Source of the DNA: Hymenobacter sp. YIM 151858-1
GTDB taxonomy: Bacteria > Bacteroidota > Bacteroidia > Cytophagales > Hymenobacteraceae
Reading direction: 5' to 3'
Assembly (NCBI RefSeq): GCF_025979705.1
Contig: NZ_CP110136.1
Location: 3,906,001-3,970,000 of the forward strand
DNA length: 64,000 nucleotides
A program made the position numbers and the translations under genes. The notes beneath the pieces were generated by a model. The model ran no database searches, was not told the DNA's origin, and worked only from the letters and a program-made list of their open reading frames with translations. Numbering within the stretch: position 1 is the first letter of the stretch; every line of letters starts with the position of its first letter. This document shows positions 1 to 62,900 of the stretch, one piece after another.

Positions 1-1026
1 CAGGCCGCGCTGAATGTTGCTGAACGCCGACGACAAGGCCTTGGCCGGCACCAGCACTTGCGAAAACAGCACGATGTAGGTAATAAAGTTGGCCGCGGTC
101 AGGTCCGATTCGCCGCCCAGCACCAGGGTGCCGCCGAAGTACAGCAGCGCCGCCACCACCGATACGCCGGCAAACTCCGAGAACGGCGAGGCCAGGTCGC
201 GGGTGTTGTCGATGCTGCGCTGGGTGCGGGCGTACTGCTCGTTCTGCGCGTGAAACTTGCTCAGGATGTACGGCTCGGCGTTGAAGGCCTTAATGACGCG
301 CACGCCACCTAGGGTTTCGTCAATCACCGAGAGCATCGAGCCCAGGGTTTGCTGGCTTTGCTGGGCCTGGCGGCGCAAACGCTTCGAAATGCCCGCAATC
401 AGCCCACCCGAAATCGGCAGCAGAATCAGCGTGAACAACGTTAGCTTGACGGACATAAAAAACAGCACCGCGAAATAGCCCACGATGGCCAGCGGCTCCC
501 GGATAACGGCCGTGAGCGAGTTCACCACCGAGGTTTCCACCTCCTGCACGTCGTTGGTAAAGCGCGACATCAGGTCGCCTTTTTGGGCCGCCGTGAAGTA
601 GCCCAGTTGCAGCTGCGTTACGCGCTGGTACAGGGCGGCGCGCAGGTTGCGGATAACGCGGGCGCGCACCTTGGCCAGCAGCCGCAGCCCTAGGTACCGG
701 AACACGTTGCTCAGAAATACCGAGCCAATCAGCAGCATGCACACCCACGCCAGCGCCCCGAGCTTGCCCTGCGTTTCGATTACCTCGCGGAAGTGGTACT
801 TGAACGTATCGGTGATAAACGACAGCGACAGGCTGAACGCCGGCGGGGCGCCGGGCGCTTCGGCCAGCATTTTGCCGGTGGTGTCGAACAGGATATTGAG
901 CAGCGGAATGAGCATGCCGAAGTTGGCAATGCCAAAGAAGATGCCCAGCACCGTGAACAGGATGTACTGGGGCAGAAAATCGGCGTAGGGCCGGGCAAAA
1001 CGCAGAATGCGGAGGTAAGTCTTCAT
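1..1026 (-). CDS. ABC transporter, permease-ATPase fusion (MsbA-like), partial
   Basis: This is the N-terminal part of a type IV (MsbA-like) ABC exporter; the gene runs off the left edge of the window. It starts at the ATG complementary to 1024-1026 (protein begins MKTYLRILRFARPYADF), and 342 codons are visible. They cover only the six-helix transmembrane domain: hydrophobic segments lie near residues 18-40, 95-115 and 155-195 and again near 275-325. The cytoplasmic coupling region contains the family-typical run VIDETLGGVRVIKAF. The nucleotide-binding domain lies outside the window. Such proteins flip lipids, lipid A precursors or drugs across the inner membrane; the substrate cannot be read from this part. 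The gene is downstream of the RemB-like gene on the same strand but separated from it by a 210-bp inverted-repeat block that includes a terminator. Confidence 0.9.
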   Translation of the reverse strand, partial: MKTYLRILRFARPYADFLPQYILFTVLGIFFGIANFGMLIPLLNILFDTTGKMLAEAPGAPPAFSLSLSFITDTFKYHFREVIETQGKLGALAWVCMLLIGSVFLSNVFRYLGLRLLAKVRARVIRNLRAALYQRVTQLQLGYFTAAQKGDLMSRFTNDVQEVETSVVNSLTAVIREPLAIVGYFAVLFFMSVKLTLFTLILLPISGGLIAGISKRLRRQAQQSQQTLGSMLSVIDETLGGVRVIKAFNAEPYILSKFHAQNEQYARTQRSIDNTRDLASPFSEFAGVSVVAALLYFGGTLVLGGESDLTAANFITYIVLFSQVLVPAKALSSAFSNIQRGL

Positions 1027-1042
1027 CGGAGGTGCAAAGGTA

Positions 1043-1253
1043 GACCACGGATTCAAGCGGATTCATCGGATTCCGCGGATTTCGTGGGCGGCCGCGCGCG
1101 TAGCGGGCCGGCACCTAGGGCGCGGCCTGGCCAGGCCGCGCCCTAGGTGCCGGCCAGCCGGCCCAACGCCAACGGCCCGGAGCAGGTGCCCCGGGCCGTT
1201 GGCGTTGTTCACAAAATCCGCGGAATCCGATGAATCCGCCCGAATCCGTGGTC
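1043..1253. repeat. Nested inverted-repeat block filling an intergenic gap
   Basis: Outer arms of 40 nt lie at 1043-1082 and 1214-1253 and match with two mismatches. Each arm is built from repeated CGGATT(C) units. Inside is a perfect 50-bp palindrome, 1106-1155, with 25-nt arms that each carry CCTAGG. A further 16-bp hairpin lies at 1165-1206. The block fits almost exactly between two minus-strand genes, and its right end overlaps the stop codon of the upstream gene. It resembles a MITE-like or REP-like intergenic element; no flanking target duplication was identified. Confidence 0.75.
1165..1206 (-). terminator. Hairpin terminator candidate of the RemB/Wzi-like gene
   Basis: A 16-bp perfect stem (1165-1180 with 1191-1206) closes a 10-nt loop about 45 nt downstream of the minus-strand stop codon at 1253. 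There is no strong T-run after it, so it may act as a stabilising 3' hairpin rather than a canonical intrinsic terminator. Confidence 0.5.
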
Positions 1254-3184: not shown

Positions 3185-3283
3185 AGAAGAAAGTAAGCGG
3201 GCTGCATACGCAAACCGCTTCGGCGAAGCTACAACTCGGCCGCCGAAAACCGCCCAGCTTTACCTAGGGCGCCGGGCCATCCG

Positions 3284-3319: not shown

Positions 3320-4084
3320 ATGACGACTGCCTTACCCGCCATTGTGTTGCTGCACGGCTTTGGCGAAAGCCGCGAAATCTGGACTGAGTTCACCCGCGAG
3401 TTTCCCGACGACGAATACCGCCTGCTCACGCCCAATCTGCTGGGCTTCGGCACCAACATCCACGATATCCGCGACTACTCTATGGAGGCCCAGGCCCGCT
3501 ACCTGGCCGACTACCTGCGCCAGCGCGGCTGCGAGCGGGTGCTGCTGGTGGGCCACAGCATGGGCGGCTACGCGGCCCTGGCCTTTGCCGAGCGCTACCC
3601 CAACATGGTAGCGGGCCTGAGCCTGTTTCACTCCACGGCTATGCCCGACTCGGACGAGAAAAAGGCCAACCGCGACAAAAACATCGACTTTGTGCAGCGC
3701 CACGGCGTCGATAAGTTCATGGAGTCGTTTATCAGGCCGCTGTTTGCGCCGGCCAACCGCGAGCGGCTGGTGCAGGAGCGCGAGTTTCTGGAGGAAATCG
3801 GCAAAGCCACGCCCAAGGAAACCGTCATCGGGGCCCTGCGCGCCATGAAAGAGCGCCCCGACCGCACCCACGTGCTGCGCGATGCGCGCTACCCGGTGCA
3901 GTTTATCGTGGGCAAAGAAGACGTGGCCGTAACCGTGGAAAGCGTGCTGCCGCAGCTGGCCCTGCCCGCCGAAAGCTACTCCCTGCTGCTCTCCGACGTG
4001 GGCCACCTAGGGTACTTCGAGCGCCCCGACGAAACCCGCCGCGCCGTGCTCGATTTTGCGGGCCGGGTATACGGCAAAGCCTGA
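3320..4084 (+). CDS. Alpha/beta hydrolase
   Basis: A 254-residue cytoplasmic alpha/beta-hydrolase-fold enzyme. It has the oxyanion-hole motif LLHGFGES near residues 10-17 and the nucleophile elbow GHSMGG with Ser80. A likely acid Asp lies in VGKEDVAV (about 199), and the catalytic His is in SDVGHLGYF (about 229). The length is normal for the family. It closely resembles the second hydrolase at 4636 in motifs and spacing, so the two are probably tandem duplicates. Its TGA stop overlaps the ATG of the next small gene, which indicates an operon and translational coupling. The substrate cannot be predicted; esters or C-C bond cleavage products are typical. Confidence 0.88.
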   Translation: MTTALPAIVLLHGFGESREIWTEFTREFPDDEYRLLTPNLLGFGTNIHDIRDYSMEAQARYLADYLRQRGCERVLLVGHSMGGYAALAFAERYPNMVAGLSLFHSTAMPDSDEKKANRDKNIDFVQRHGVDKFMESFIRPLFAPANRERLVQEREFLEEIGKATPKETVIGALRAMKERPDRTHVLRDARYPVQFIVGKEDVAVTVESVLPQLALPAESYSLLLSDVGHLGYFERPDETRRAVLDFAGRVYGKA

Positions 4085-4380: not shown

Positions 4381-4528
4381 GGCTTTGAAGGCCCGTGCCC
4401 TAGGTGCTTGCCCAGCCTATGGGCAACGGGGGCGATTCGATGCCGGCTTGCAGGCGCGGCGGCGAAGGCGTGAGCCGCAGCCGCCGCAATCGTTGCACGA
4501 AATCGTTGCTGACGGCCTCGCCGCCGTG

Positions 4529-4635: not shown

Positions 4636-5394
4636 ATGAAGCCCACCCTGTTGTTTATCCACGGCTACCTCGAAAGCGGTGCCGTGTGGGACGAGTTCGC
4701 GGCGCCGCTGCGTGCCCGCTACCAGGTGCTGTGCCCCGATTTGCCGGGTTACGGCCCCAACGCCCAACCCGCCCCCGACTACTCGCTGGAGGCCGCGGCC
4801 GATTTCCTGCGCGACGAACTGAGCCGCGCCGGGGTGGGGCAGGTGCTGCTGGTGGGCCACAGCATGGGCGGCTACGTGGCCCTGGCCTTCGCCGAAAAAT
4901 ACCCCGGTCTGGTGGCAGGCCTGTGCTTGTTCCACTCCTCATCGTTGCCCGACACCGACGACGACCGGGAGCAGCGCACCCGCAACCGCCAGTTTCTGGA
5001 GGAGCACGGCGTGGCCGCGTTTGCCGAGGAGTTTCTGAAGCCCCAGCTGGCCGCCGCCCACCGCGAGTCGATGGCGCACCACGTGCAGCAGTTGCAACGC
5101 ATTGCCGCCGCCGTGCCAGCCGAAACCGCCCTGGGCAGCCTGCAGGCCATGGCCGCGCGCCCCGACCGCCGCGCCGTGCTCGAAAAAGCCACCTTTCCGG
5201 TGCTGCTCATCGCCGGCAAAGACGACCGCGCCGTGTCGCCCGAAAAAACCCACGAAGAAAGCCTGCTGCCCGACCATTGCCTGGTGCTGTGGCTGGCCAA
5301 CGTGGGGCACCTAGGGTTTCTGGAGCGCCCCGAGCCCACGCGCAAAGCCATCGAGAACCTGGCCGAGCTGGTGCTGCCCGAGCCCGCGGCGTAA
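4636..5394 (+). CDS. Alpha/beta hydrolase (paralogue of the gene at 3320)
   Basis: A 252-residue alpha/beta hydrolase with the oxyanion-hole motif FIHGYLES (residues 7-14), the nucleophile elbow GHSMGG (Ser76) and a C-terminal catalytic His in NVGHLGFLE (about residue 225). The acid is probably the Asp in AGKDDRAV (about 194). Motif order, spacing and many side chains match the hydrolase at 3320 (for example the DYSLEAAA and DYSMEAQA stretches), so it looks like a tandem duplication that has diverged. It lacks a signal peptide and should be cytoplasmic. A repeat element follows directly after its stop. The substrate is unknown. Confidence 0.88.
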   Translation: MKPTLLFIHGYLESGAVWDEFAAPLRARYQVLCPDLPGYGPNAQPAPDYSLEAAADFLRDELSRAGVGQVLLVGHSMGGYVALAFAEKYPGLVAGLCLFHSSSLPDTDDDREQRTRNRQFLEEHGVAAFAEEFLKPQLAAAHRESMAHHVQQLQRIAAAVPAETALGSLQAMAARPDRRAVLEKATFPVLLIAGKDDRAVSPEKTHEESLLPDHCLVLWLANVGHLGFLERPEPTRKAIENLAELVLPEPAA

Positions 5395-5712: not shown

Positions 5713-6888
5713 CTAGAACGTACGCATGCGCGGGCCGGCGGGGGCGGGGCCGGGCCGCCCGCTTCGCACCACGGTAAATGTAATCGGCACGAGGTAGAAG
5801 CTGCGCACGGGCTGGCCCTGCTCGAGGGCCGGAAACAGGGGCGGCAGCTGCGACACCACGCGTACCGCTTCCGCGTCGAGCTCGGGGTGGGCCGCGCCAA
5901 CCACCAATGGGTTTTGCACGCGGCCTTCTTCGCTTACTTCAAACAGCACCGTTACCTTGCCTTGGAGGCCGGCCCGCAACGCCGCAGGCGGGTACTTGAT
6001 GTTGCGGCCCAAAAACTCGTACAGCGCCTTGCCGCCGCCCTCGATAACGGGCGGCTCCGTCGGGAACAGGCGCAGCCCCGGCAGCAGGCCCACCGTGCCC
6101 GTAGCCCCGTCAAACAACACCGGCACCAGGGCCGCGCTGCTGCTGGGCTGGCCGTTGCGCACGGCCGCCTGCCAGCGTAGGCCGCTGCTGCCCAGCGCCG
6201 CCACGGCAGCCTCCACCAGCGTGGCGTCGGGCGCTTGCACACCGGCTTTGGGGTTGCGGGTGGCTTTGTCGCCCATCAGCGAAAGCGGCCGCACGCCGCT
6301 TACCTGGCCCAGCGAATCGACCTGCACGCTCACGAACACCAGCGCCGAGGTTTGGGTCTGGCGGGCGGCCTCGGGGTAGGTTGCGCTTTTCAGGTGAGCC
6401 GCCAGCGCCTCCTGCCCACCCACGGGCCTGGGTGGGTACAGCTCGGCGGCGGGCCGGGGGCCGCTCAGCAGCGGCTGCACCGGCGGCAGCCGGAAGTTGA
6501 TTTGCAGCGTTTGGGCCACCGGCACGGCGCGCCCGGCCTGCCGGCCCGGCTCCCAGGCAGGCATCGTCTGAATCAGGCGCAGGGCCTCGGCCTCAAACAG
6601 CGGGTTGCTGCTTTTGACGATTTTGACCTGCTCGGTGGTGCCCGCGGGGCTCACCACGAAACTCACGAACACCCGGCCTTCGAGGCGCTGCGCGGCGGCC
6701 TCGGCGGGGTATTGCCGGTGGCGGTTGAGGTAAGCGTACACCGAATCTGCACTGCCACCCCGAAACCGGGGCATTTGCTCCACAAACGTGTACGTAGCCG
6801 GTGCCGCTGCGCCAGCACCCGCCACTTGACCTAGGGCGGCAGAAGTCACGAACAACCCGGCACCGCAGAATAGAGAACGTAATAGCAT
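5713..6888 (-). CDS. Periplasmic protein with repeated TonB C-terminal-like domains
   Basis: The chosen start is the ATG at 6888 (391 residues); a GTG at 6894 is an alternative. Residues 1-21 form a signal peptide (MLLRSLFCGAGLFVTSAALG). Three TonB_C-type units follow: near residues 30-130 (EQMPRFRGGSADSVYAYL, EGRVFVSFVV, VKSSNPLFEAEALR), 150-255, which is more diverged (AAHLKSATYPEAARQ), and 285-380 (GLQGKVTVLFEVSEEG, HPELDAEAVRVV). Normal TonB has an N-terminal membrane anchor, a Pro-rich spacer and one C-terminal domain. This protein has no anchor, so it is unlikely to be an ordinary energy transducer; a periplasmic binding role is an inference. It lies directly behind the asd terminator. 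Confidence 0.75.
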   Translation of the reverse strand: MLLRSLFCGAGLFVTSAALGQVAGAGAAAPATYTFVEQMPRFRGGSADSVYAYLNRHRQYPAEAAAQRLEGRVFVSFVVSPAGTTEQVKIVKSSNPLFEAEALRLIQTMPAWEPGRQAGRAVPVAQTLQINFRLPPVQPLLSGPRPAAELYPPRPVGGQEALAAHLKSATYPEAARQTQTSALVFVSVQVDSLGQVSGVRPLSLMGDKATRNPKAGVQAPDATLVEAAVAALGSSGLRWQAAVRNGQPSSSAALVPVLFDGATGTVGLLPGLRLFPTEPPVIEGGGKALYEFLGRNIKYPPAALRAGLQGKVTVLFEVSEEGRVQNPLVVGAAHPELDAEAVRVVSQLPPLFPALEQGQPVRSFYLVPITFTVVRSGRPGPAPAGPRMRTF

Positions 6889-8044: not shown

Positions 8045-10657
8045 ATGCTGCCACGCCTGCTTTACTTGTTTGGGCTGATGCTTTTGGCCTTGCCGGCCGC
8101 GGCGCAACTAGCCGAAACCTTCGCCGACGGCGACTTCAGCCAGAACCCCACTTGGGTGGGCGACGCGGCCGCTTTTCAGGTAAACGCGCAGCAGCAGCTA
8201 CAAAGCAACGGGCCGGCCGTTACGGGCTCCCAAACGCAGCTGGCCACCCCGCAACAGGCGGCCACCGGCACTACCTGGGAGTTTTGGGCCAACCTGCGCC
8301 TGGCCACCTCGGGCGGCAACCTGGCCGATGTGTGGCTGATATCGGAGCAAGCCGACCTGAAAGCTGCCGGCAACCGCGGCTACTTTGTGCGCCTGGGCGG
8401 CACGCCCGACGAGGTTGCTCTGTTTAGGAAAGATGCCACGGCCAGCCCGGTGTACGTTATCAACGGCCAGGACGGTACCCTGAATTCGACCACCAACAAC
8501 CTGGTGCGCGTGCGCGTTACGCGCAGCCCCGCCAACGTCTGGACGTTGGAGCGCGACCTCACGGGCGGCCGCACCTTTGCCAGCGAGGGCACCGCCACCG
8601 ATGCCACCTACCAGCGCAGCCAGTACCTAGGCGTGCTGCTCACGTACTCGGCCGCCAACAACCGCAACTTCTATTTCGACGACTTTCGGGTCGTCGATGC
8701 CACGCCGCCGCAGCTGGTAAGCGCCACGGCCGTATCGGCAACGCAGGTTGATGTGCAGTTCGCGGAGCCGGTGGCTACCTCGGTAGCGGCCAGCTCGTTT
8801 CGGCTGGGCAACGGCGCCGTTGCCACCGCCGCGCAGCCCGATGCGGCCGATGCCAGCCTGGTGCACCTCGCCTTCGGCGGCAACCTGCCCCTAGGTCAGA
8901 ATACCCTGGAGGTGCGCAACGTGGCCGACTTGTTCGGCAACGCGGCCGCGGGGCCGCTTACCACCACGTTCCGGTTTAGCGGAGTGCTGGTGGCGCCGGG
9001 CGTCAATCAGGTGCTCATCACCGAAATCCTGGCCGACGAAACGCCGCAGGTGGGTTTGCCGGCATCGGAGTACCTCGAAATACATAACCCTTCGGCCACC
9101 AACCAGCTCGACCTGGGCGGTGTGCGCCTGCTGAAGCCGGGCAGCAACGCGGCGGCGGTGTTTCCGGCGGGCGCCGTGCTGCTGCCCGGCGAGTACGCGG
9201 TGGTGTGCGCCAGCACCCGCACGGCGCAGTTTACCGGCTTTGGCAAAGTGTTCGGCCTCACCAACTTTCCGAGCCTTACCAACACCGCCGACCAACTGCT
9301 GCTGCGCGCCCGCGACGGCCGCACCCTGTTTGAGGTACGCTACGCCGACACCTGGTACCGCGACAACCGCAAAAAGGAGGGCGGCTGGGCCCTGGAGCTG
9401 ATTGACCTGGGCAACCCTTGCGCCGGCGCCGACAACTGGCAGGCCAGCCTCGATGCCAGCGGCGGCACGCCCGGCCGCGCCAACTCGGTGCAAGCCGCCA
9501 ATCCCGACCGTACCCCGCCGCAGCTGCTGGCCGCCGTGGCCGTAACGGCTACGCGCCTGCGCCTCACCTTCGCCGAAAAGCTCGATAGCACCCTCGCCAG
9601 CAACCCCGCGCTGTACCGCGTGTTGCCCAACGGCCCGGCGGTGCAAAGCGCCGCCCCGGTGCCGTTCGACTTCCGGACGGTGGAGCTGACCCTAGGTGCG
9701 CCGCTCGCGCCCAACCAGCCCTACACCGTGCAGGTGCAGCGTGCTACCGATTGCGTAGGCAACGGCACCGGCCCAATTACCTCAGCCACCATTGCGCTGC
9801 CCGTGCCCGCCGCGCCCGGCAACGTGGTTATCAACGAAGTGCTGTTCAACCCGCGTTCGGGCGGCTACGACTTTGTGGAGCTGCTCAACCGCTCGGGCAG
9901 TTACCTGAGCCTGCAGGGCTGGCGCCTGGCCCGCGAGTTGCCCGATGGCTCGCTCGATGCCCACAACATCAGCCCCGAGCCGCTGGCGCTGGCGCCCGGC
10001 CAGCTGGTGGTGCTCAGCGAGCGGCCCGAAATTGTGCAGGCGCAATACCCCAACAGCCACGAGGCCGCGGCGTTTCTGCCGCCCGTAAGCCTGCCCTCAT
10101 TGCCCGACGATGCCGGCGTAATTGTCCTGCTCGATGCGCAAAACCGCACCATCGATAGGCTGGCCTACGCCGAAACCATGCACCTGCCGCTGCTCGATAC
10201 CCGCGACGGGGTGTCGTTGGAGCGCATCCGGCCCGACGGGCCCAGCACCGCCGCCAACTTTCATTCGGCGGCCGGCAGCACGGGCTACGCCACGCCCGGG
10301 CGGCGCAACTCGCAGTACCAAACCGAGCCCGGCGGCGACAAACAGTTTGCCTTGGAGCCCGAGGTCTTCACACCCGACGACGATGGCCAGCAGGATTTTG
10401 CCACCCTCAGCTACCGCCTCGATGGCGCCGGTTACCTGGCCAGCATCACGGTGTACGATGCCCTGGGCCGCCTCACGCGCCGCCTGGTGCGCAACGAAAC
10501 GCTGGCTACCACCGGCTTTTTCCGCTGGGACGGCCTCACCGATGCCAACCGCAAAGCCGCCGTGGGCTACTACGTGCTGCACATCGAGCTCTTTCAGCCC
10601 AATACCGGCATTCGGCGCGAATACAAGAAAACCGTGGTGCTGGGTGCGCGGCTGTAG
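8045..10657 (+). CDS. Secreted lamin-tail-domain protein with T9SS/FlgD-like C-terminus
   Basis: The ATG at 8045 gives an 870-residue protein with a clear signal peptide (LLYLFGLMLLALPAAA); a TTG 12 nt upstream is also open. An N-terminal jelly-roll-like region is followed by a lamin-tail domain near residues 320-480 (NQVLITEILADE, EYLEIHNPSATNQLDLGG). An Ig-like segment follows, then a second lamin-tail domain near residues 585-740 (GNVVINEVLFNPRSGGYDFV). The last 90 residues read FTPDDDGQQDFATLSY and ITVYDALGRLTRRLVRNE and are FlgD-Ig/gliding-motility-like, as in T9SS cargo. It is probably exported to the cell surface or medium. The gene stands alone and diverges from asd. The specific binding partner is unknown. 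Confidence 0.8.
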   Translation: MLPRLLYLFGLMLLALPAAAQLAETFADGDFSQNPTWVGDAAAFQVNAQQQLQSNGPAVTGSQTQLATPQQAATGTTWEFWANLRLATSGGNLADVWLISEQADLKAAGNRGYFVRLGGTPDEVALFRKDATASPVYVINGQDGTLNSTTNNLVRVRVTRSPANVWTLERDLTGGRTFASEGTATDATYQRSQYLGVLLTYSAANNRNFYFDDFRVVDATPPQLVSATAVSATQVDVQFAEPVATSVAASSFRLGNGAVATAAQPDAADASLVHLAFGGNLPLGQNTLEVRNVADLFGNAAAGPLTTTFRFSGVLVAPGVNQVLITEILADETPQVGLPASEYLEIHNPSATNQLDLGGVRLLKPGSNAAAVFPAGAVLLPGEYAVVCASTRTAQFTGFGKVFGLTNFPSLTNTADQLLLRARDGRTLFEVRYADTWYRDNRKKEGGWALELIDLGNPCAGADNWQASLDASGGTPGRANSVQAANPDRTPPQLLAAVAVTATRLRLTFAEKLDSTLASNPALYRVLPNGPAVQSAAPVPFDFRTVELTLGAPLAPNQPYTVQVQRATDCVGNGTGPITSATIALPVPAAPGNVVINEVLFNPRSGGYDFVELLNRSGSYLSLQGWRLARELPDGSLDAHNISPEPLALAPGQLVVLSERPEIVQAQYPNSHEAAAFLPPVSLPSLPDDAGVIVLLDAQNRTIDRLAYAETMHLPLLDTRDGVSLERIRPDGPSTAANFHSAAGSTGYATPGRRNSQYQTEPGGDKQFALEPEVFTPDDDGQQDFATLSYRLDGAGYLASITVYDALGRLTRRLVRNETLATTGFFRWDGLTDANRKAAVGYYVLHIELFQPNTGIRREYKKTVVLGARL

Positions 10658-10676
10658 CGGCTACGCGGCACCTAGG

Positions 10677-10975
10677 GCTTGGGCCCGGCTGTCATGGCGA
10701 GCAAAGCGAGACATCTGGGGGCTGACGTTGTTTAGCCTGTCATCCTGAACCAAGCGAAGGAGCTGATCGGGACCTCACCCCCCGGCCCCCTCTCCAAAAG
10801 AGAGGGGGAGCGGATGCTATCCGACGTCAGCACGCGAGATGCCTCGACAAGCTCAGCATGACGATACCGCCCAACGTCCGCCCGCCAGATGTCTCGCTTT
10901 GCTCGGCATGACAGCCGGGCCCAAGGTCACCAGGCTCCCCCTCTCTTCTGGAGAGGGGGCCGGGGGGTGAGGTCC
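10677..10975. repeat. Interleaved inverted-repeat patch
   Basis: The 527-bp gap between 10657 and 11185 has no gene but two overlapping inverted-repeat pairs. Pair A: 10677-10718 with 10885-10926, 42-nt arms with about one mismatch, containing GTCATGGCGAGCAAAGCGAG. Pair B: 10770-10811 with 10933-10975, containing ACCTCACCCCCCGGCCCCCT and a GAGAG hairpin. One B arm lies inside the A element and the other outside it. Another dispersed word, GATGCCTCGACAAGCTCAGC, lies at 10839-10858. This indicates repeated insertion of short non-coding repeats into one another. Confidence 0.75.
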
Positions 10976-11184
10976 AACGTGAGGCCCCTCGTCAGGATCA
11001 CAACGGCGCGCCATACAACGCGACCTAGGGCAGCGGCACTCAACCGCGGCTTGCCGTGGCCGGCGGCCACCAAAACCACCTGGTATAAATACTGAAAAAG
11101 CAAGCTGGGCAATATCCATCTGGTTGTCAGGGCGTAATAATGGGCAGACTCCAATGTCCAACCATTAATGATATCCGACTTACC

Positions 11185-11610: not shown

Positions 11611-11654
11611 ACCACAGCGGCCGGATCACCCCTAGGTGGTCCGGCCGCTGTGGT
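11611..11654. terminator. Bidirectional terminator with CCTAGG in the loop
   Basis: A 15-bp perfect stem (11611-11625 with 11640-11654) continues as a weaker stem toward a loop containing CCTAGG. It lies between two convergent genes. Confidence 0.7.
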
Positions 11655-12625: not shown

Positions 12626-12685
12626 GTGCCAACCCAGCAAAAAGCCCGAACCTGCATGGGGTCCGGGCTTTTGTTGGGTTGGCAC
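12626..12685 (-). terminator. Terminator of the TonB-dependent receptor
   Basis: Arms beginning GTGCCAACCCAGCAAAAAGC and ending GGGCTTTTGTTGGGTTGGCA pair over more than 20 bp with one bulge around the loop near 12650-12662. It lies about 45 nt after the receptor's stop on the minus strand. CCTAGG abuts the right arm. Confidence 0.65.
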
Positions 12686-12728
12686 CTAGGCGAATCCGGT
12701 AGCCCCGGCGGGCGCGTTGCACGCGCCC

Positions 12729-17694: not shown

Positions 17695-17712
17695 AGTACC
17701 TAGGCGCCGCGC

Positions 17713-23061: not shown

Positions 23062-23067
23062 CCCTAG

Positions 23068-41122: not shown

Positions 41123-41156
41123 AGCGCTGCACACCCCTAGGTGCGCAGCGCTTTTT
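41123..41156 (+). terminator. Terminator after the ComA-family gene
   Basis: The stem AGCGCTGC/GCAGCGCT (41123-41130 with 41145-41152) carries CCTAGG in its loop and is followed by TTTTT. Confidence 0.75.
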
Positions 41157-41807: not shown

Positions 41808-41874
41808 CTACTGCTGTGTGCAAATCGTTAATAATAGGAACCAGCCCTAGGTGGTAGACACTTCGCCCAGCCTT

Positions 41875-42798: not shown

Positions 42799-42876
42799 CG
42801 CAAGCAGCGGCACAGCACCTAGGCAACCCTGCACCCAAAAGGCAGTAATACGGGAGGTTAAACCACTGAGCCTACC

Positions 42877-44229
<1,353 letters not shown>

Positions 44230-44311
44230 CCGCAACCTAGGGCCGGCAAGCAGGCCGGGGCAGTGGGCCTTTGCGCGCTAGGCGTTTACTTTGCAGGATA
44301 ACCCTGCTCTT

Positions 44312-45795: not shown

Positions 45796-45833
45796 GGCCC
45801 TAGGTGGCAGCAGCACCCAGACGTGCACCAACA

Positions 45834-49728: not shown

Positions 49729-50654
49729 TGGGCGGTAGTGGTTTCGGTGAGGTGCAGAAAGGTTTGCTCGAGGGTTTGCTGCTGGCAGCGCAGGCCGTAC
49801 AGCGGTTGGCCGGCGGCTACCAGCTGCTGGGCCAGGTAGGCAGCTTGCTCCTGCGAGTGGTAGGGCAGGGCCAAGGTGCCTGGGCCTACCACGGTAGCGG
49901 CGCCTAGGTCGAGGGGCAGCAGGTTGCGGCAGGTGGCCGCGTCGTCGGTTTCGATGATGAGCTGCGTGTGGCCGTGCTGCCGGTGCTGCAAAGCCGCCAG
50001 GCTGCCCTGAAATACCAACCGGCCCTGCTGAATGACGCCCACGTGGGTAGCCACGCGCTCAATCTCGCTGATGAGGTGGCTGGAGAGCAGAATGGTTTTG
50101 CCATGCTCCTGCTGCAAGCGGCGCAGCAACTCGCGCACCTCAATAATGCCCGTGGGGTCGAGGCCGTTGGTGGGCTCGTCGAGGATGAGCAGCTCCGGGT
50201 TGGGCAGCAGGGCCAGGGCCAGGCCCAGGCGTTGGCGCATACCCAGGGAGTACTCGCCCGCCGCCCGGTGCCCATCGGCGGCCAGGCCTACCACTGCCAG
50301 CACCTCCTCGGAGCGGCCTTTGGCAAGGCCGCGCAGGCGGCGGGTGGCCTCCAGGTTTTGCAGGCCCGAGAGGTGGTCGTAGAGCGAGGGCATTTCGATG
50401 AGGGCACCCACGCGGCTAAGCACCTGCAAGCGGTGGCGGCCTAGGTCGTGGCCGAACAGCTGCACCGAGCCGGCCGGGCTGGGCAGCAGCCCCAGCAGTA
50501 TGCGCAGCGTGGTGCTTTTGCCGGCGCCGTTCGGCCCCAGAAAGCCGTAGATGCTGCCCTGCGGCACCTGCAGGTTTACATCGTGGAGTACCTGGCGCTG
50601 GCCAAAGCGAAAGGAGAGGTGCCGGGTTTCGGCGAGTAGTTCGGCTGCAGGCAT
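49725..50654 (-). CDS. ABC transporter ATP-binding protein
   Basis: A 309-residue ATPase of the bacitracin/lantibiotic-immunity type. Walker A is GPNGAGKSTTL (about residues 39-49), followed by the Q-loop. The signature motif is EYSLGMRQRLGLALALL (about 132). Walker B LLILDEPTNGLDP (about 153) and the switch His in LLSSHLISEIE (about 190) follow. The C-terminal 90 residues form the regulatory extension seen in BcrA-type proteins. It forms an operon with the permease gene, and a LytS/LytTR sensor-regulator pair is transcribed divergently. That arrangement is typical of peptide-responsive export modules. Confidence 0.93.
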   Translation of the reverse strand: MPAAELLAETRHLSFRFGQRQVLHDVNLQVPQGSIYGFLGPNGAGKSTTLRILLGLLPSPAGSVQLFGHDLGRHRLQVLSRVGALIEMPSLYDHLSGLQNLEATRRLRGLAKGRSEEVLAVVGLAADGHRAAGEYSLGMRQRLGLALALLPNPELLILDEPTNGLDPTGIIEVRELLRRLQQEHGKTILLSSHLISEIERVATHVGVIQQGRLVFQGSLAALQHRQHGHTQLIIETDDAATCRNLLPLDLGAATVVGPGTLALPYHSQEQAAYLAQQLVAAGQPLYGLRCQQQTLEQTFLHLTETTTAQ

Positions 50655-50857
50655 GGCAACGGAGGAGTGGTTGAGCGAAGAACTGTCCCAAACCTAGGCG
50701 GTCGATTTTGCGCTTGCTGGCTTTTTCGACCAAGCCCCGTATTGCCAGCCGAAACGCCTGATTTCGACCCTCCAACCGCTGCGCCCGGCTCCGCAACCAG
50801 GTTCCGCTTACCACCAGTAGTGTTGGTGGCCGGCCCTAGGTGGTTGGGGGTGCCAAA

Positions 50858-50895
50858 CGCCCCGTTGGTTGAAAACACCTAGGCGCAACGGGGCG
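50858..50895. promoter_or_regulatory. Dyad in the ABC-transporter/LytS intergenic region
   Basis: CGCCCCGTTG/CAACGGGGCG (50858-50867 with 50886-50895) encloses CCTAGG and lies about 20 nt before the GTG start of the histidine kinase. It has no T-run, so it may be a leader hairpin or an operator. Confidence 0.4.
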
Positions 50896-50914: not shown

Positions 50915-52069
50915 GTGGAATACTCTGCTACTTCGGCGGCCCTGCCGGCATCGGCTACTACGCAAGGCTCCTCTGGCCGCCTGCGCTTTATCTCAAAGCT
51001 GCAATGGTGGCCCAATGCGCCCGGCCTGGCAAGCGTGCCGGCATGGGTGCACGTGCTGTGGGTGTTGCTGCTCGTGCTTACCGATGTGATGCACGGCTAC
51101 ACGGCGCTTACCAACAAAAACCCACCCCCGTTAGACATGCTCGTGCTACGCGCCTTGCTCTACGACGCGTTAGCCTCCCTGATATTCTACTTGAACTGGG
51201 CAACCCTGATACCCCGCACTTTAGCGCGTAACCGCCTAGGTTCTTACGTGTTGGGCGTGTTGGGTTTGCTGCTGCTTTTCGTGCCGCTACGTTTCGGCGC
51301 CGGCTGGCTGATGAAAACCTTGTCTGAAGCCCGCGACCTAGGACAGTATTGGGTTGCGCTGCTGATTTCGTACGTAGTATTCGGGCTGATGACCATCTTC
51401 TTCAGCTCGGGCCTGAAGGTTACCGGCGACTACCTGCTGGCCCAGCGCAACCGCCGCGAGCTGGAGCGCCAGCAATTGCTTACGGAGTTGTCGTTGCTGA
51501 AAATGCAGGTGAACCCGCACTTCCTGTTCAACACGCTCAACAACATCTACTCGCTGGCCAGCCAAAAGTCGGACCGGGCGCCCGAGGCCGTGCTGCGCCT
51601 CTCCGAAATCATGCGCTACATGCTCTACGAAAGCTCGGCCGATGCCGTACCGCTCAGCAAAGAGCTCAACCACCTGCGTAGTTTCCTGGATTTGCAGCGC
51701 CTGCGCCTGCCCGCCAACGGCGCCGATGCCATCGTGTTCAGCACCGCCGGTATCAGCGCCGATGTAGCTTACCCCATTGCACCCATGCTGCTGCAGCCCT
51801 TAGTGGAAAACGCCTTCAAGCACGGCGACCTCACGGCCCGACCCGCGGTGGTGATTGAGTTGGGGCTCGATGCGCAGGGTGTGTTGCACTTTGCGGTGCA
51901 AAACGCCACCGCGCCTGCCGCGCCCGGCCCGGCTCTGGAGCAGCCCGGTGGCGTAGGCCTCGTAAACCTGCGCCGCCGCCTCGAGCTGCTTTACCCCGAG
52001 CGGCACCACCTGCACATCAGCGAGCAACCCGGGCAGCACCGCGTCGAGCTTACCTTGCTGCCGGCCTAA
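50915..52069 (+). CDS. LytS/YehU-family sensor histidine kinase
   Basis: A 384-residue membrane kinase with a GTG start; no closer ATG precedes the first helix. Four transmembrane segments lie near residues 45-62, 78-95, 108-130 and 145-165. The dimerisation/phosphoacceptor motif is KMQVNPHFLFNTLNNIYSL (His about 204), and the ATPase part has PMLLQPLVENAFKHG (N-box, about 289) and a diverged G-box (GGVGLVNLRRRLELLY). This is the His_kinase (PF06580) plus HATPase arrangement. It is followed by a LytTR response regulator gene 43 nt downstream, and its partner output may include the divergent ABC transporter. Confidence 0.92.
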   Translation: MEYSATSAALPASATTQGSSGRLRFISKLQWWPNAPGLASVPAWVHVLWVLLLVLTDVMHGYTALTNKNPPPLDMLVLRALLYDALASLIFYLNWATLIPRTLARNRLGSYVLGVLGLLLLFVPLRFGAGWLMKTLSEARDLGQYWVALLISYVVFGLMTIFFSSGLKVTGDYLLAQRNRRELERQQLLTELSLLKMQVNPHFLFNTLNNIYSLASQKSDRAPEAVLRLSEIMRYMLYESSADAVPLSKELNHLRSFLDLQRLRLPANGADAIVFSTAGISADVAYPIAPMLLQPLVENAFKHGDLTARPAVVIELGLDAQGVLHFAVQNATAPAAPGPALEQPGGVGLVNLRRRLELLYPERHHLHISEQPGQHRVELTLLPA

Positions 52070-52112
52070 CGGCCACCTAGGTCAGCAAGCCTATACCAAT
52101 ATCTTAGTGCCT

Positions 52113-52886
52113 ATGGACAACGCTACGCCCGGCCGCAAGCTTACCTGCGTCATCATCGACGACGAGCCCCTGGCCCTCGACCTGCTGGCCGGGTACTGCG
52201 CCCAAGTGCCGTACCTCGAGCTGAAAGGCCAGTTTCACGACGCACTGGTGGGCCTGGCCTTTGTGCAGGACAACCCCGTCGACGTGGTGTTTGTCGACAT
52301 CCACATGCCGCGCATCACCGGCCTGCAGCTGGTGCAGCTGCTGCCCAGCCCCGCACCTAGGGTCATCTTCACCACGGCCTACGATCAGTACGCCGTGCAG
52401 AGCTACGAGCTGAGCGCAGCCGATTACCTGCTGAAACCCATTGCCTTTGAGCGGTTTGTGCAGGCCGTAAACAAAGTGCGGCACGTGCCGGCCTCGGTTT
52501 CGGCTGTGGCTGCGCCGGCCCCGCCAACACCGGCGCCAATCGAAGCCGCACCGGTACCCGTAGCGCCCGATGCCATGTTCGTGAAAAACGAGCACCGGCT
52601 GCAGCGCGTCGCCTTCAACGATATCCTCTACATCGAGGGCATGAAGGAGTATCTCATGATTTACACCCTGGGCAGCAAAATCCTCACGCTGCAATCCTTC
52701 AAAAGGGTAGAGGAGGTGCTGCCGCCCGATCGGTTCGCGCGCATTCACAAGTCGTACATCGTGGCGCTCAACCACATCGAGCACGTGGAGCGCAGCAAAG
52801 TACAGGTAGCCGGCCGCCTGCTGCCCATCGGCGACACCTACCGCGACTCTTTCGCGGCTACCATCCGGGCCTACAACTTGCTCTAA
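52113..52886 (+). CDS. LytTR-family response regulator
   Basis: The ATG at 52113 (MDNATPGRKLTCVIIDDEPL) gives 257 residues. The receiver domain has the acidic pair DDEP, the phospho-acceptor Asp in VVFVDIHMPRITG (about residue 62), Thr in VIFTTAYDQYAV and Lys in YLLKPIAFERF (about 108). A Pro/Ala-rich linker (about residues 125-150) leads to the LytTR DNA-binding domain (ILYIEGMKEYLMIYT, FARIHKSYIVALNHIE). It pairs with the LytS-type kinase upstream. A 33-bp-stem terminator follows the stop. Confidence 0.93.
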   Translation: MDNATPGRKLTCVIIDDEPLALDLLAGYCAQVPYLELKGQFHDALVGLAFVQDNPVDVVFVDIHMPRITGLQLVQLLPSPAPRVIFTTAYDQYAVQSYELSAADYLLKPIAFERFVQAVNKVRHVPASVSAVAAPAPPTPAPIEAAPVPVAPDAMFVKNEHRLQRVAFNDILYIEGMKEYLMIYTLGSKILTLQSFKRVEEVLPPDRFARIHKSYIVALNHIEHVERSKVQVAGRLLPIGDTYRDSFAATIRAYNLL

Positions 52887-54598: not shown

Positions 54599-56153
54599 TA
54601 ACGACCACCAACAGCCGACCGGCAGCCTGGAGGACTTGTTCCGCCAGCGGTTTGCCGAGGCCGAGCTAACGCCCCGCGCCGCCGTGTGGGAGCAGCTCGA
54701 CCACGATTTGCTGGTGCGCGAAAACCAAGGCTACCGCAAGCGCCTGCTGGGCTACCGGCGCGCCGCCGCGGCGGCCGCCGTGCTGGCCGCATTGGGCCTG
54801 GGCGGCTGGTTTACCCAGCAAGGCATTCAGTTCAATACCTCATCGAGCAACGCCACCGCCACGGTATTCACGCCCGATGGCCGCCAAGGCCTGGCCAGTG
54901 CCTCTGTTGCCAGCCCCGATAACCACCTAGGCGCCGCCGGGCAGGCAGCCGAAGCCAGCGCCGGCAACCCGCGCCGCGCCCTAGGTGCCGCTACGGCTGC
55001 CAACACTCCGGCAGCAGGCAGCAACCCAGGCGGTAGCATTGCCTCTCAGCCGGCCCCGGCAACGCACGGGGCCACGGCCTTGCTGGCCGATGGCTCTGGC
55101 AGCCGCAGTGCTGCAGGCCGTGCGTTGGCAGCCATTAAGCAAACCTTTGGCGGCTCGGCAGCGGGCAGACTGCAGCGGCCCGGCATGTTCCGGCCGCGCG
55201 GTGCCAACCCGGTTACCGGTAGCCGCACGGCTATTGCCCAAGCCCAGGCACCGGCTGGCGGCAACGGCGGCCACTACGCAGCCAGCGAAGTGCAGCCCGT
55301 AGCCGCCCAACTGCGCCCCGCCAGCTTTGCCGGCAACCTGCTGAACCCCGATTCAGTGAAACGCGCTTTGCTGAGCGCGCCGCTGCAGCAGGCCGTAGCC
55401 CAAACCGCCACGCGCCCTGCCCGCGAGGAAAACGAGAAAGAAACCAGCCGCCCCAACCGCTGGCGGTGGCGCGGCGGCTACGCGGCCGAGCGCTTCGTAC
55501 CCAACGTAAGTAGCCCCACCGGCGAAGGCCTGGCCCTGCGCGCCGCCGACCCCACCACCAACTTTATGGCCCCGCCGCCCGCGCCCACCAAGCTGCAGCC
55601 GGGCCTGGCCCAGCGCGGCCACCTAGGCGGCGCCATCAGCCTGGGTAAAAAGCGCTGGACGCTGCTTACCGGCGTGGAGCTGACCAGCATTTCGGGTGAA
55701 ACCATGCGCGAGACGCCGCGGCAGTACCAGTCGTACTACCCCGGTACCGGCCCGGCCAGCCAAACGCAGCAAGAAGGCCGCTACCGCATGACCACCGCCG
55801 GCGTGCCCGTGCAGCTGCGCTACGAGGGCCGCAAGCCCGGCGTATCGGTGTATGCGGCGGTGGGTGCGGCCGTAAACGTGCTGCTGCGCACCCGCACCAC
55901 CGTAGGCGACCAGGCCGCCAGCAACGACGGCGCCTACCGCCGGTTGCTTACCGCGGCCCGCGGCAGCGCCGGCCTGCGCTACGCCCCCGCCGGTGGCAAC
56001 TGGCAGGTGTTCCTGGGGCCGGAAGCCGAAGCCGGCCTGAGCACCCTCAACAGCAACCCGGCCGGCCAGTGGGGCGAGCGTACGCGGCCTTATGCGGTTG
56101 GCTTGTCGGCCAGCGTGGAGTTTGGCGGCGGCAAAGTAGCTTTACAACCCTAG
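54579..56153 (+). CDS. One-TM membrane protein with C-terminal barrel-like region, coupled to the sigma factor
   Basis: The ATG at 54579 (MTPVSNNNDHQQPTGSLEDL) lies inside the sigma-factor gene. The product has 524 residues. Residues 18-50 (LEDLFRQRFAEAELTPRAAV) look like a short cytoplasmic segment of an anti-sigma type. One transmembrane helix lies near 65-85 (RAAAAAAVLAALGLGGWF). A long Ala/Gly/Pro-rich region (about 90-330) leads to a strand-rich end (LGGAISLGKKRWTLLTGVEL, GVPVQLRYEGRKPGVSVYAA, LSASVEFGGGKVALQP). Comparable Bacteroidota genes follow ECF sigma genes. An anti-sigma role for the N-terminus is inferred from position and overlap, not from a recognised domain. Confidence 0.7.
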   Translation: MTPVSNNNDHQQPTGSLEDLFRQRFAEAELTPRAAVWEQLDHDLLVRENQGYRKRLLGYRRAAAAAAVLAALGLGGWFTQQGIQFNTSSSNATATVFTPDGRQGLASASVASPDNHLGAAGQAAEASAGNPRRALGAATAANTPAAGSNPGGSIASQPAPATHGATALLADGSGSRSAAGRALAAIKQTFGGSAAGRLQRPGMFRPRGANPVTGSRTAIAQAQAPAGGNGGHYAASEVQPVAAQLRPASFAGNLLNPDSVKRALLSAPLQQAVAQTATRPAREENEKETSRPNRWRWRGGYAAERFVPNVSSPTGEGLALRAADPTTNFMAPPPAPTKLQPGLAQRGHLGGAISLGKKRWTLLTGVELTSISGETMRETPRQYQSYYPGTGPASQTQQEGRYRMTTAGVPVQLRYEGRKPGVSVYAAVGAAVNVLLRTRTTVGDQAASNDGAYRRLLTAARGSAGLRYAPAGGNWQVFLGPEAEAGLSTLNSNPAGQWGERTRPYAVGLSASVEFGGGKVALQP

Positions 56154-56292: not shown

Positions 56293-58332
<2,040 letters not shown>

Positions 58333-58360
58333 CCGCACCTGCCCTAGGTGCCATTGCCTA

Positions 58361-59407: not shown

Positions 59408-59507
59408 TCCCCGGCGGCGCCCTAGGTGGCGGCCGGCCCGCAGGCTTTGGGCAAGCGCCGGGGGCGCCGTAGCTTTGACCACTCTCAACCACACAGCCAC
59501 CATTACC

Positions 59508-59934: not shown

Positions 59935-59986
59935 CCCCCAAACGCCAACGCCCTAGGTGCTTACCTAGGGCGTTGGCGTTTGGGGG
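59935..59986. terminator. 24-bp perfect hairpin between convergent genes
   Basis: Arms 59935-59958 and 59963-59986 are exactly complementary; both arms carry CCTAGG next to the 4-nt loop. It separates the third small secreted protein gene from the large T9SS cargo gene. Confidence 0.85.
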
Positions 59987-59999
59987 AGGCAGCCGAAGC

Positions 60000-62900
60000 T
60001 TAGTAACGCGTGAGGCGCTTGAGCACGCGGCCGCGCGCTGTTTGCAGCACCAGCAGATACAGGCCCGGGCGCTGGGCGGCCAGGTTTAGCTCCAGCGCCG
60101 GCGTGGTTTCGTGGCCGAGTTGCCGGCTGAGCACCAGCGCCCCCACGGCGTTGTACACGCGCAGCTCGCCCAGGTCGAAATCGGCGCGGTGCCAGTCGAG
60201 GGTGGCGGTGCCGTGCGTGGGGTTGGGGTACAGGGCAATGGCTTCGTCGGGGCTGAGGGCCCGCACCTCGAAGGCGGGGCTGGCGTTGCTGCGCCCGCCG
60301 CTGCCGCCCACCACAAACGCCCCCGTGCGGGCCCCTCGCGGCACCTGTACTACCAGCGTACCGGGCGTGCTGGCTACCACCGGCGCCGCCAATTGGCCCA
60401 GCCACACAGTGTCGGGTTGGGCATCGGCGCGCAGGTGCCGGGCCGTTAGCGTAACCCGCTCGCCCACGGTGCCCTGGCGGGGCTGCACATCAGTAATGAG
60501 CGGGGCCGGCACAAATACGAAGCTGGCCGCCGAAGTGGCCGTACCACCCGGCGTTTCAACCCGCACCGGGCCCGATTGCGCCCCGCCAGGCACGCGCACC
60601 TGCAGGCTGGCGGGGCTGGCTTGCAGCACGCTGGCCGCGGCCCCGCCCACGTACACCCGCGTGCGGCCGGCCGGGGCAAAGTTGCTGCCGCTAAGCGTGA
60701 GTACGTCGCCGGCTCTGCCCTTGCCTGGCCCCACGGCGTCAATGGTGGGCGGGTACCATACCGCAAAGGGCTGCGCGCTGCTGGCGGTGCCACCCAGCGT
60801 GCCCAGGCGTACCACGCTTTGGTGCGGGGCGCCGGCGGGCACCACCACCCGCAGCTCGGTGGCCGAGGCCTGCTGCACCATGGCTGGCACGCCCCCAAAC
60901 CACACCGTATCGAGGGCGGCAAGGGGGGCAAAGTGCGCGCCCGCAAGGGTTACCAGCGCGCCGGGCTGGCCCTCGGGCGGTGCCACGCTCGTAATGGTGG
61001 GCGGCTGATACACCACAAAGCTTTGGGCGCTGAGGCCCTGGCCATCGGGGGTGGTTACGGCCACGGGCGCCGTTTGGGCGCCGGCCGGCACGCGCACCGT
61101 AAGGCTGGTGGCGCTGGCGCTCAGCACCACGGCGGGCGTGCTGCCAAAGTGCACCTGGTTGGCGGCCGGCGTGGGGGCAAAACGCTCGCCCGCCAGCGTT
61201 ACCACCGTGCCGGCTTTGCCCTGCGCCGGCGTCACGGCCAGCACCGCCGGCGCGGCCACCACGGCCGGGTAGGCCAGCGCTACCGCGGGCTCCGGCACCA
61301 GCGGCACGTCAAAAATGCGGTTGGTGGTGGTGTTGGTGCGCACCGGCGGGTTGTAGTCGAAGTAAATGTCGGCGAAGTTCTCCACCAGGGTTTTGGGGGC
61401 GAGGCCGGCGCGGGGCTGCACCTCAAACTCCACAAAACCGTTGCTGCCGGGCTCGTCGCGCTGGGCGGGCGGCAGGCTTAGGTTGGCCAGCGTAAACGTG
61501 AGCACCGGCCGGCCGTGGCCGCTCAGGCGCCAGCGGTAAGGGTGCGAGGCTCCGGTTACGCGCAGGGTGCTCAGGTCGAGGTCGGCACCTAGGGTATCTA
61601 CCACCTCCACGCGGTAAGCGTCGTCGGTGCCGGTGTTCTGAAAGCGCACGCGGTAACGCAGCGGCGTGTTGGTGGGCGTGTAGTGCTGGGCCGTTACCCC
61701 CGTCGGGAATACCAGCTTGTCGTTGGGGTCGAAGGAGTCGAGAATGGGCAGGCAGCTTTCGGCCACCTCGGGGCCGGGGTCGTTGGGCGGCAGGCTGTGC
61801 ATGGCCTCGTTGGGCTGGCCCGGGGTGCTCAGGCCGCGCAGCTCCACGGTGGCGCTGGCCACGCGCTGCGTAGGGTGCCCGGCGGGCTGATCGGCTTCCA
61901 GGCGCACCACCGGCCGGCTGGCCGGCACCCGCAGCACCAGCGAGTCGCGGGCACCTAGGCGGTAGCGGTGCTGCAAAGCCAGCGCCCCGTTCTGAAACAC
62001 CCGGAAGCTTAGGCTATCGGGCATAGCGCCCGGGCCGGCGTTGCGCAGCACAAAGCGCGCCGTGTTGCCGGCTTGCACCTGCCCCGTAATGGCTACCGAG
62101 GCTTTAACCCAATTGGGCGGGGCCGGGTAGGTGTTGGCTGGCGTAATCCAGGCGCGGGTGCACACCGTGCGGCCGCGCACCTCGGGGTTGTTGCAAGCCA
62201 CCGAGTCTTGGATAACGATGCTGCCGCCCGCGTTGGCGGGCAGCGTACCTAGGGCAAACACGTAGCGGCCGGCTGCGTCGCGGGTGTAGGGCGCGCTGGC
62301 CCGTACCAGCACTACCTCGGGCGGCAGCGCCACCGTTACGGCCGCGTTGGGCGCGGCGGCAAAGCCGCTGTTGGCGTAGCTTACGGTGGTGGTGTTGCGG
62401 AAGCAGCGCCGGCGCCGGTCGGAGGCTACCTCCACGCGCAAGTAAGGCGCCGTGCTCACGTGGTGCGCAAAGTTGATACCGCTCGTGGCGTTGCCGTAGC
62501 TGCGGAACACCACGGGCGTCTGCGGGGCGCAGGGCAGGGGCGTAATGGTGCGGCCCACCTCGCCCACGGGCAGCAGCGGGCGCACGGTGTAGCGGCCCGT
62601 ATCCACGGCCATAAAATAGTGGCCGCTTTCGTCGGTGAGGCCGTAGTAGTCGCCGGGCTCGGCCACCACGGCAATGCCCGGCAAGGGCTCCTCGCCGGCG
62701 TCGAACACGCAATTGTTGTTGGCGTCGTAGTACAATTGGCCCGAGAGCAGGTTGTGCGGCGGGCGCTGGCCCGCCGCGTAAAAGCGCACCACGTCGTTGG
62801 CGTAGATCATGGAGAGCAGGCGGCTACCGTCGCGCGATACCGATACGCGGCTGCCGTACGCGGGCATGGGCCGCTCGGCGCTGCCGTCGGCGGCATAAAT

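Follow-up and report, generated by a model that had tools for sequence, protein, structure and literature searches.

CCTAGG in Hymenobacter: a one-directional, highly iterated genomic word with an upstream box, possibly a self signal of the DNA-uptake type

The sequence considered here, hereafter the window, is the 64,000-nucleotide stretch of Hymenobacter sp. YIM 151858-1 that occupies positions 3,906,001 to 3,970,000 of contig NZ_CP110136.1, and the element under study is the hexamer CCTAGG that recurs throughout it. The run of sites extends over positions 308-62253 and comprises exactly 83 copies (first 308-313, last 62248-62253), with a mean spacing of about 755 bp in DNA of 62.2% G+C. The initial annotation had estimated the G+C content slightly too high, at about 64%, while its hand count of about 83 sites and its composition-based expectation of about 20 are confirmed by the exact count and by a composition estimate of 21.4. 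Markov models of orders 1, 2 and 3, the check named beforehand, predict 14.6, 11.4 and 14.6 copies, respectively, and at all three orders CCTAGG ranks first among all hexamers of the window. An order-4 model expects 71 copies, a value that is circular because CCTAGG accounts for 83 of the 118 CTAG tetramers of the window, so that the word itself makes most of the CCTAG and CTAGG on which the model is built. The excess extends to the whole genome (G000; 4.62 Mb in 3 contigs), where 5325 copies, one per 868 bp, were counted against 75 of the reversed word GGATCC, which is possibly avoided itself. In a 464-kb sample formed by the window and 20 further stretches, 552 copies were found versus 96.5 expected at order 3, and a second sample of 400 kb yielded 482. 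Other CTAG hexamers, the second comparison that had been proposed, are far rarer, the runner-up CCTAGC reaching 88 copies in the same 464 kb. The longer 11-mer form, GCACCTAGGGC or its complement GCCCTAGGTGC, is indeed present, and the statement that many sites have it was a modest overstatement, since the window holds 4 + 6 = 10 copies.

The unit that is enriched in this genome is not the palindrome CCTAGG, as first annotated, but the one-directional octamer ACCTAGG[G/C/A]. This octamer or its complement is present at 80 of the 83 window sites and at 513 of 552 in the 464-kb sample, where the full palindrome ACCTAGGT appears only 8 times (once in the window). With the strands merged, the flanks of the 552 sites are A..G in 321 cases, A..C in 152, A..A in 40 and A..T in 8, and 31 sites have no A flank. 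Taking the flank frequencies at other CT sites as the baseline, ACCTAGGG is enriched 25-fold, ACCTAGGC 6-fold and ACCTAGGA 3.6-fold, with no enrichment (0.9) of ACCTAGGT and CCCTAGGG. The same order of flank enrichment was obtained in the sister species G010 (110 sites) and G025 (121 sites). The two orientations are used almost equally along the genome, with 2272 copies of ACCTAGGS (S, G or C) on the forward and 2286 on the reverse strand. Strand heterogeneity over 41 stretches is not significant (p 0.11, replichores not mapped); the reverse strand is slightly favored up to 1.65 Mb and the forward strand beyond 3.3 Mb. A segregation motif, one of the functions initially suggested, finds no support in these figures in its strongly strand-skewed form.

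Within the window, the core ACCTAGGG lies on the forward strand at 307-314, 1113-1120, 3262-3269, 4005-4012, 5309-5316, 6829-6836, 10670-10677, 11023-11030, 13203-13210, 14325-14332, 14847-14854, 14946-14953, 20374-20381, 20593-20600, 23795-23802, 26336-26343, 27948-27955, 28899-28906, 30365-30372, 32422-32429, 38041-38048, 39154-39161, 39358-39365, 41641-41648, 43898-43905, 44235-44242, 46899-46906, 52355-52362, 59963-59970, 61587-61594 and 62247-62254, and on the reverse strand at 688-695, 1141-1148, 4398-4405, 8889-8896, 9690-9697, 11630-11637, 18654-18661, 22241-22248, 23062-23069, 23762-23769, 26372-26379, 27559-27566, 30303-30310, 30911-30918, 31683-31690, 41135-41142, 41845-41852, 42167-42174, 42588-42595, 45798-45805, 50834-50841, 54979-54986, 58342-58349, 59420-59427 and 59951-59958. 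The core ACCTAGGC is found on the forward strand at 8625-8632, 12684-12691, 17698-17705, 18085-18092, 23738-23745, 24545-24552, 37554-37561, 38080-38087, 42817-42824, 45131-45138, 50692-50699, 50877-50884, 54925-54932, 55621-55628 and 61953-61960, and on the reverse strand at 27316-27323, 47688-47695, 48141-48148, 49902-49909, 50439-50446, 51234-51241 and 57764-57771. Two forward copies of ACCTAGGA (36250-36257 and 51336-51343), the full palindrome ACCTAGGT at 52075-52082 and two sites with no A flank, CCCTAGGC at 22094-22101 and CCCTAGGG at 38646-38653, which like the palindrome have no direction, complete the set.

A second element accompanies the core on one side only. When the A of ACCTAGG is numbered as position 1, the 199 non-coding sites of the first sample exhibit a distal box at -27 to -22 that reads G, S, Y (T or C), S, C, Y and in which A is rare. 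Weaker departures from background were detected at these sites near -17/-18, at -8 and beside the core; on the downstream side, position 9, next to the core, is the only constant one, and positions 30 and 37 each passed in one sample with no replication. The box persists after the removal of similar contexts (179 of 199 sites kept) and was replicated in the second 400-kb sample (158 non-coding sites). After correction for codon phase, coding sites of either direction also show parts of the box, at an unchanged distance. In the 78 sites of G010 and G025 taken together, positions -27 to -25 and -17 pass and positions -23 and -22 fail. The frequency of A over positions -26 to -22 is 0.11-0.13 upstream of ACCTAGGG and ACCTAGGC versus 0.18-0.21 upstream of words one base off (all sites). 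A weight matrix of the box was then trained on 869 sites from 40 stretches outside the window, leaving 80 window sites as the held-out set. The held-out sites were separated from their own mirrored side with an area under the receiver operating characteristic curve (AUC) of 0.68 (p 4e-5), from random places with an AUC of 0.66 and from one-base-off words with an AUC of 0.61 (p 0.013), and the same matrix also discriminates the sites of G010 (p 1e-3) and those of G025 (p 4e-4). The top box score in the window belongs to the box at 14297-14302 of core 14325-14332, and further examples are those at 23767-23772 (core 23795-23802) and 50849-50854 (core 50877-50884), all on the forward strand.

A different setting surrounds the word in G058, whose core is framed as GG-CCCTAGGG-CC and has distal elements to either side of it, T at -15/-14 and A at +23/+24. 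The pair -15/+24 was also recovered at coding sites. Palindromes of this genome were read in both directions with the chi-square halved, and three weak distal positions seen in 120 kb were absent in 520 kb, where others appeared.

Spacing between sites is otherwise near random, with a coefficient of variation (CV) of 0.89-1.18 in six genomes rich in the word (those of very high CCTAGG count, hereafter high genomes), and regular spacing was not seen in these six. The exception concerns close neighbors, for which inversion was seen in 49 of 65 pairs (adjacent oriented sites no more than 60 bp apart), compared with 518 of 1053 pairs that lie farther apart. Four hairpins of the window, picked by eye, carry sites in stem or loop and fold far more stably than shuffled sequences. 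The inverted cores 1113-1120 and 1141-1148 pair in the stem of the hairpin at 1100-1165 (z -7.2), core 26372-26379 is located at the loop of the one at 26350-26410 (z -6.8), and a small hairpin at 59945-59975 (z -6.5) is built of an inverted core pair. The fourth and longest, at 30296-30380 (z -14.2), has an inverted core pair in its stem; it forms 39 pairs in a near-perfect fold of -80.8 kcal/mol followed by a T-run, and is probably a terminator.

As first described, genes of either strand contain sites, and so do gaps and hairpins. Gene calls were obtained from a home-made codon model, so that the DNA outside genes includes missed genes. With this definition, 242 sites versus 136 expected lie outside called genes in G000, and an excess outside genes was also found in G010, G025, G058 and G079. 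Among short gaps of G000, those between convergent genes have 4.35 sites per kb, those between genes of the same direction 3.15 and those between divergent genes 1.79, and there is no preference for site orientation relative to genes. Inside genes, 288 of 310 sites of G000 fall in the frame xxC-CTA-GGx, encoding Leu-Gly. CTA is used in 288 of the 503 C-CTN-GG contexts of this genome, rising to 78 of 88 when A precedes and G follows (AC_GGG), compared with a CTA share of 3.6% in its other CTN codons. In G079, CTA fills all 44 A..T contexts, and its share in four low-count congeners is 0-5%. The log-odds of CTA are shifted by 3.6 to 5.3 in the site context. Codon usage was rejected as the cause of the word, given the 3.6% share of CTA elsewhere and the higher site density outside called genes in G000.

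Comparison of G000 with its sister species (88% identity) revealed retention of the CCTAGG site in 51 of 69 and 51 of 66 cases, versus 471 of 1003 and 458 of 948 for other palindromic hexamers pooled, so that the proposed inspection of orthologous sites points to stronger retention of CCTAGG. The flanks are unchanged at 48 and 45 of the 51 sites kept in each comparison. The four low-count congeners (77-79% identity in the aligned regions) each retain a single site, out of 24, 30, 34 and 37 covered. One-step differences from these congeners are mostly at position 3 and involve C>T and G>T alike, in ratios of 5:3, 4:5, 5:2 and 6:6, although the four congeners are related and non-independent and the direction of change is unestablished.

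The distribution of the trait is patchy. Six of 150 genomes of the family have more than 5000 copies of CCTAGG. In the genus of the window genome, three of eight sampled genomes are high (5325, 5678 and 6212) and the other five have 123-249 copies; the other three of the six come from a neighboring genus, g5, and very high counts are absent from the sampled genomes of the four remaining genera of the family. A survey of 120 genomes of g5 gave six with 5585-8806 copies, four intermediate ones with 1209-2331 and 110 with at most 888. The two genera together have nine high genomes. Outside the family, the top count was 734 among 293 Bacteroidota genomes drawn evenly from a larger group, none of which was high. 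A scan of 80 named loci found dense stretches (61-135 per 100 kb) in Solirubrum puertoriconensis (probably G025), Hymenobacter cavernae (probably G079) and H. crusticola, and at most 3 copies in each of the other 77 loci. In a tree of one 481-aa protein with eight open forks, the seven high genomes fall into three separate groups, namely G000, G010 and S. puertoriconensis; H. crusticola and H. cavernae; and G058 and G137, the last two sharing a long branch. Three label changes are needed on this tree and the starred branches force two; only one shuffle of 500 was as low.

Each group has its own dialect. The first one uses ACCTAGGG and the second ACCTAGGT and ACCTAGCT. In the third, G058 uses CCCTAGGG and G137 A/C-CCTAGGG. 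The element shared overall is CTAG, and among the high genomes it is CCTAGG. Two of three sampled intermediates favor GC before CTAG, at 36 of 138 and 34 of 136 half-sites, a preference of 2.5- and 2.3-fold in 20 kb each; both genomes (G453, locus L335, and G497, locus L336) contain about 2000-2200 CCTAGG. This preference may mark a fourth dialect or an intermediate step as the word is gained or lost.

Several observations on related words and on site-poor regions were made along the way. CTAG is strongly avoided in four pooled low congeners (G004, G020, G030 and G035), with 121 copies versus 800 expected, and in the high genomes this avoidance is partly to wholly lost even outside CCTAGG. GATC is reduced to 2.5 per 100 kb in G058 (L071-L076) and G137 (L083-L088), versus 60-207 in eight other genomes, and GGATCC counts are 0-30 in many g5 genomes, as if a system cutting GATC or GGATCC were present now or earlier. 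In the G000 sample (window plus L001-L020), GATCGC has 2 copies versus 180 expected and CGATCG 14 versus 235 (order 2). Two 20-kb stretches of G000 are nearly empty of CCTAGG, L006 (G000:C1:1100001-1120000) with 1 site and L302 (3000001-3020000) with 4, and are perhaps acquired DNA; a Vsr gene lies inside L302, whose end adjoins a cytosine methyltransferase gene.

Any explanation of the word has to account for an 8-bp one-directional core, clade-specific distal preferences, different base changes leading to the same word and the log-odds shift of CTA. ACCTAGG[G/C/A] with its upstream box is tentatively interpreted here as a self signal of the DNA-uptake type. Under this interpretation, the word and its box would be what a sequence-reading receptor or complex recognizes on DNA, most likely one that acts in DNA uptake and recombination, as for the signals of Haemophilus and Neisseria. 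DNA bearing the word would be taken up and recombined more often, and the resulting steady bias in favor of mutations that create the word would multiply it across the genome and let sites accumulate. A reader protein with a long footprint, combined with a bias for any site-creating mutation, could explain the core, the distal preferences, the mixed base changes and the shift of CTA. From these sequence features we infer all three components, that is, the protein reader, its role in uptake and the drive through recombination. Uptake is the first choice because uptake signals are the known case that combines asymmetry, dialects, inverted terminator pairs and distal elements. According to two reports (PMC12616744, PMC7811141), uptake signals occur in thousands of copies, form dialects with a fixed inner core and are found as inverted pairs in terminators, and the uptake signal sequence (USS) has distal elements. 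The likeness to the USS of Pasteurellaceae (Hin-USS and Apl-USS) and the DNA uptake sequence (DUS) of Neisseriaceae comprises an asymmetric core present on both strands in thousands of copies (in the clade of the window), a fixed inner core with clade dialects, and inverted pairs in terminator-like hairpins, which are predicted here; the distal elements at a fixed distance are shared with the USS.

A number of results weigh against this interpretation. In contrast to USS and DUS, the word is patchy within genera and belongs to another phylum, and the distal box of G000 is G+C-rich and not A/T-rich as in the USS. PMC12616744 indicates that uptake dialects elsewhere follow the whole-genome phylogeny, unlike the high genomes here, which are a scattered minority. 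The commonest octamer is a full palindrome in two sampled high genomes, G058 (80 of 166) and G079 (80 of 140), another departure from USS and DUS, and the symmetric distal elements of G058 look more like the footprint of a dimeric binding protein. The box of G000 was not found in 120 kb each of G137 (100 sites) and G079 (50 sites); one-base-off words of the window obtain box scores between those of the sites and those of random places; and a control word, AGGTCCC[GCA] (20 sites), is also poor in A in the box region (0.14). G137 lacks the excess outside genes (61 sites versus 58 expected), any site placed in a hairpin stem would by itself yield some inverted close pairs, the flanks on which the CTA shares depend are possibly shaped themselves, and TGCGCA is kept nearly as well as CCTAGG in the sister species (33 of 47 in G010 and 29 of 50 in G025). 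These bacteria are not known to be competent, and no reader receptor was identified, genes for uptake, pili and nucleoid proteins not having been searched for.

The word could instead be the binding site of an abundant chromosomal protein or complex, such as a nucleoid, recombination or topology factor, an explanation that is somewhat unlikely; the symmetry of the word in G058 and G079 and its patchy occurrence keep this explanation close behind uptake. Numerous sites, each of little benefit, would be maintained by selection at about one per kb, and the protein would touch the DNA at the core and again two to three helical turns from it. The palindromic commonest cores of G058 and G079, together with the symmetric T/A elements of G058, fit a dimer, and near-random spacing without significant strand heterogeneity is consistent with such sites; the log-odds shift of CTA by 3.6 to 5.3 would be within reach of weak selection per site. 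No protein of this kind was identified, nucleoid genes not having been searched for, and the form of the word in G000 is asymmetric. The scattered presence within the genus argues against an essential chromosomal role, and none of the nucleoid proteins known to us reshapes codon choice at thousands of sites, which was also counted against this explanation.

The initial annotation had compared the pattern with HIP1 of cyanobacteria (GCGATCGC). The likeness holds for a word iterated genome-wide in the high genomes, about once per kb in genes, gaps and hairpins and without a repeat family behind it, for the patchy distribution among genomes of a group and for the use of different words by related genomes, as with HIP1 and the alternate HIPs; it fails in G000, G010 and G025 for the asymmetric core and its one-sided box. 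The HIP1 word and its extensions are palindromic, unlike the one-directional core of this clade; in G058 and G079 the most frequent octamer is palindromic too. In the process that Elhai's model proposes for HIP1, an orphan methyltransferase would mark the word and methyl-directed mismatch repair would preserve changes that create it; that it operates here is unlikely, even though density and coding spread match HIP1. PMC4390886 states that wherever words are highly over-represented in a cyanobacterial genome, a putative methyltransferase for them is present too; it also mentions genomes with HIP1 and no CGATCG enzyme, reports only palindromic extensions of HIP1 and describes its role as still debated. 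It further describes an alternate HIP of Oscillatoria PCC 10802 that is extended only at ACCGGC and GCCGGT (PMC4390886); this asymmetry parallels the one-A rule of CCTAGG, so that asymmetry by itself is compatible with a HIP-like process. High and low genomes were searched with profiles for five methyltransferase families and for Vsr. PF00145 was found in 2 of 6 high and 12 of 23 low genomes, PF01555 in 4 of 6 and 16 of 23, PF07669 above the cut-off in 5 of 7 and 7 of 10, PF02384 in 6 of 7 and 8 of 10, PF02086 in 0 of 7 and 2 of 10, and Vsr (PF03852) in 2 of 7 and 1 of 10. None of the five families is present in all high genomes (other methyltransferase classes not searched), which leaves the suggested orphan methyltransferase unsupported; no tested family tracks CCTAGG. 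The sole genes above the cut-off are one of PF01555 in G025, located on a 12.5-kb contig, and one of PF02384 in G010, and these two genomes share the ACCTAGGG dialect with G000 despite having no tested family in common. Each high genome searched carries a gene from one or another of the tested families, which agrees with a HIP1-like process and makes unequal pairings possible; specificity is not readable from family membership, and the assemblies are about 99% complete by estimate, so that a gene may have been missed. A one-sided box 22-27 positions away would also be unexpected for a short methylated site.

It is more doubtful still that the word results from a mutational bias, in which an enzyme acting at near-miss sites makes CCTAGG arise more often with no use to the cell. 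The same core in three groups is in agreement with such a bias, as is the weaker avoidance of CTAG outside CCTAGG, with observed/expected ratios of 0.2-1.2 in high genomes versus 0.15 in the four pooled low ones. Against it, the one-step differences comprise both C>T and G>T, the sites are kept better than other palindromes pooled, and the same enzyme would have to make the distal box. Biased repair, also raised at the outset, is disfavored in its single-change form by the two change types and by the presence of Vsr in only 2 of 7 high genomes, and a Vsr-type mechanism was rejected on the same grounds. An origin by chance, from base composition or from dispersed repeats can be dismissed almost entirely, since the sole figure in their favor is the circular order-4 value of 71, while models of orders 0-3 expect 11-21 copies in the window, five congeners carry 123-249 per genome, the whole genome of G000 holds 5325, and the 199 non-coding contexts form 179 clusters and so are mostly not repeat copies.

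Two other kinds of known system were also compared. Chi and KOPS are short, over-represented functional words that are strand-skewed; CCTAGG resembles them as a short over-represented word and differs in its almost equal strand counts, with a slight regional lean only and replichores not mapped. The hexamer itself is the target of restriction-modification systems, the enzymes AvrII, BlnI, BspA2I and XmaJI being listed for it in PMC1939737, which also gives 0 copies of GCCTAGGC in Escherichia coli K-12 versus 151 expected. Restriction is expected to lead to avoidance; here the word is enriched.

Words of such a kind are known from few groups, namely HIP1 in cyanobacteria, the uptake signals of Pasteurellaceae and Neisseriaceae, and Chi. 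No prior report of the CCTAGG word in these bacteria was found among the titles and abstract openings of the matches listed from open-licence PubMed Central papers. Self-DNA uptake signals may here have arisen independently for a third time, in Bacteroidota, built on a CTAG/CCTAGG inner core and a distal box at two to three helical turns from it and split into three or four dialects among separate groups of Hymenobacter and Solirubrum; this is put forward as tentatively as the uptake interpretation itself and, if uptake is not involved, the word may represent an undescribed class of genome-wide, protein-addressed signal. The results suggest a DNA word, and not translation, as the determinant of much CTA usage ahead of GG in these species. 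Eleven relatives were sampled; the 1-kb stretch L089 of G149 and many short loci returned by the family searches do not enter the analysis. The trait is present in three groups, absent from relatives and intermediate in four genomes, and together with the species-specific dialects these cases constitute natural replicates, which makes the gain and loss of the word and the identity of its reader testable by comparison.

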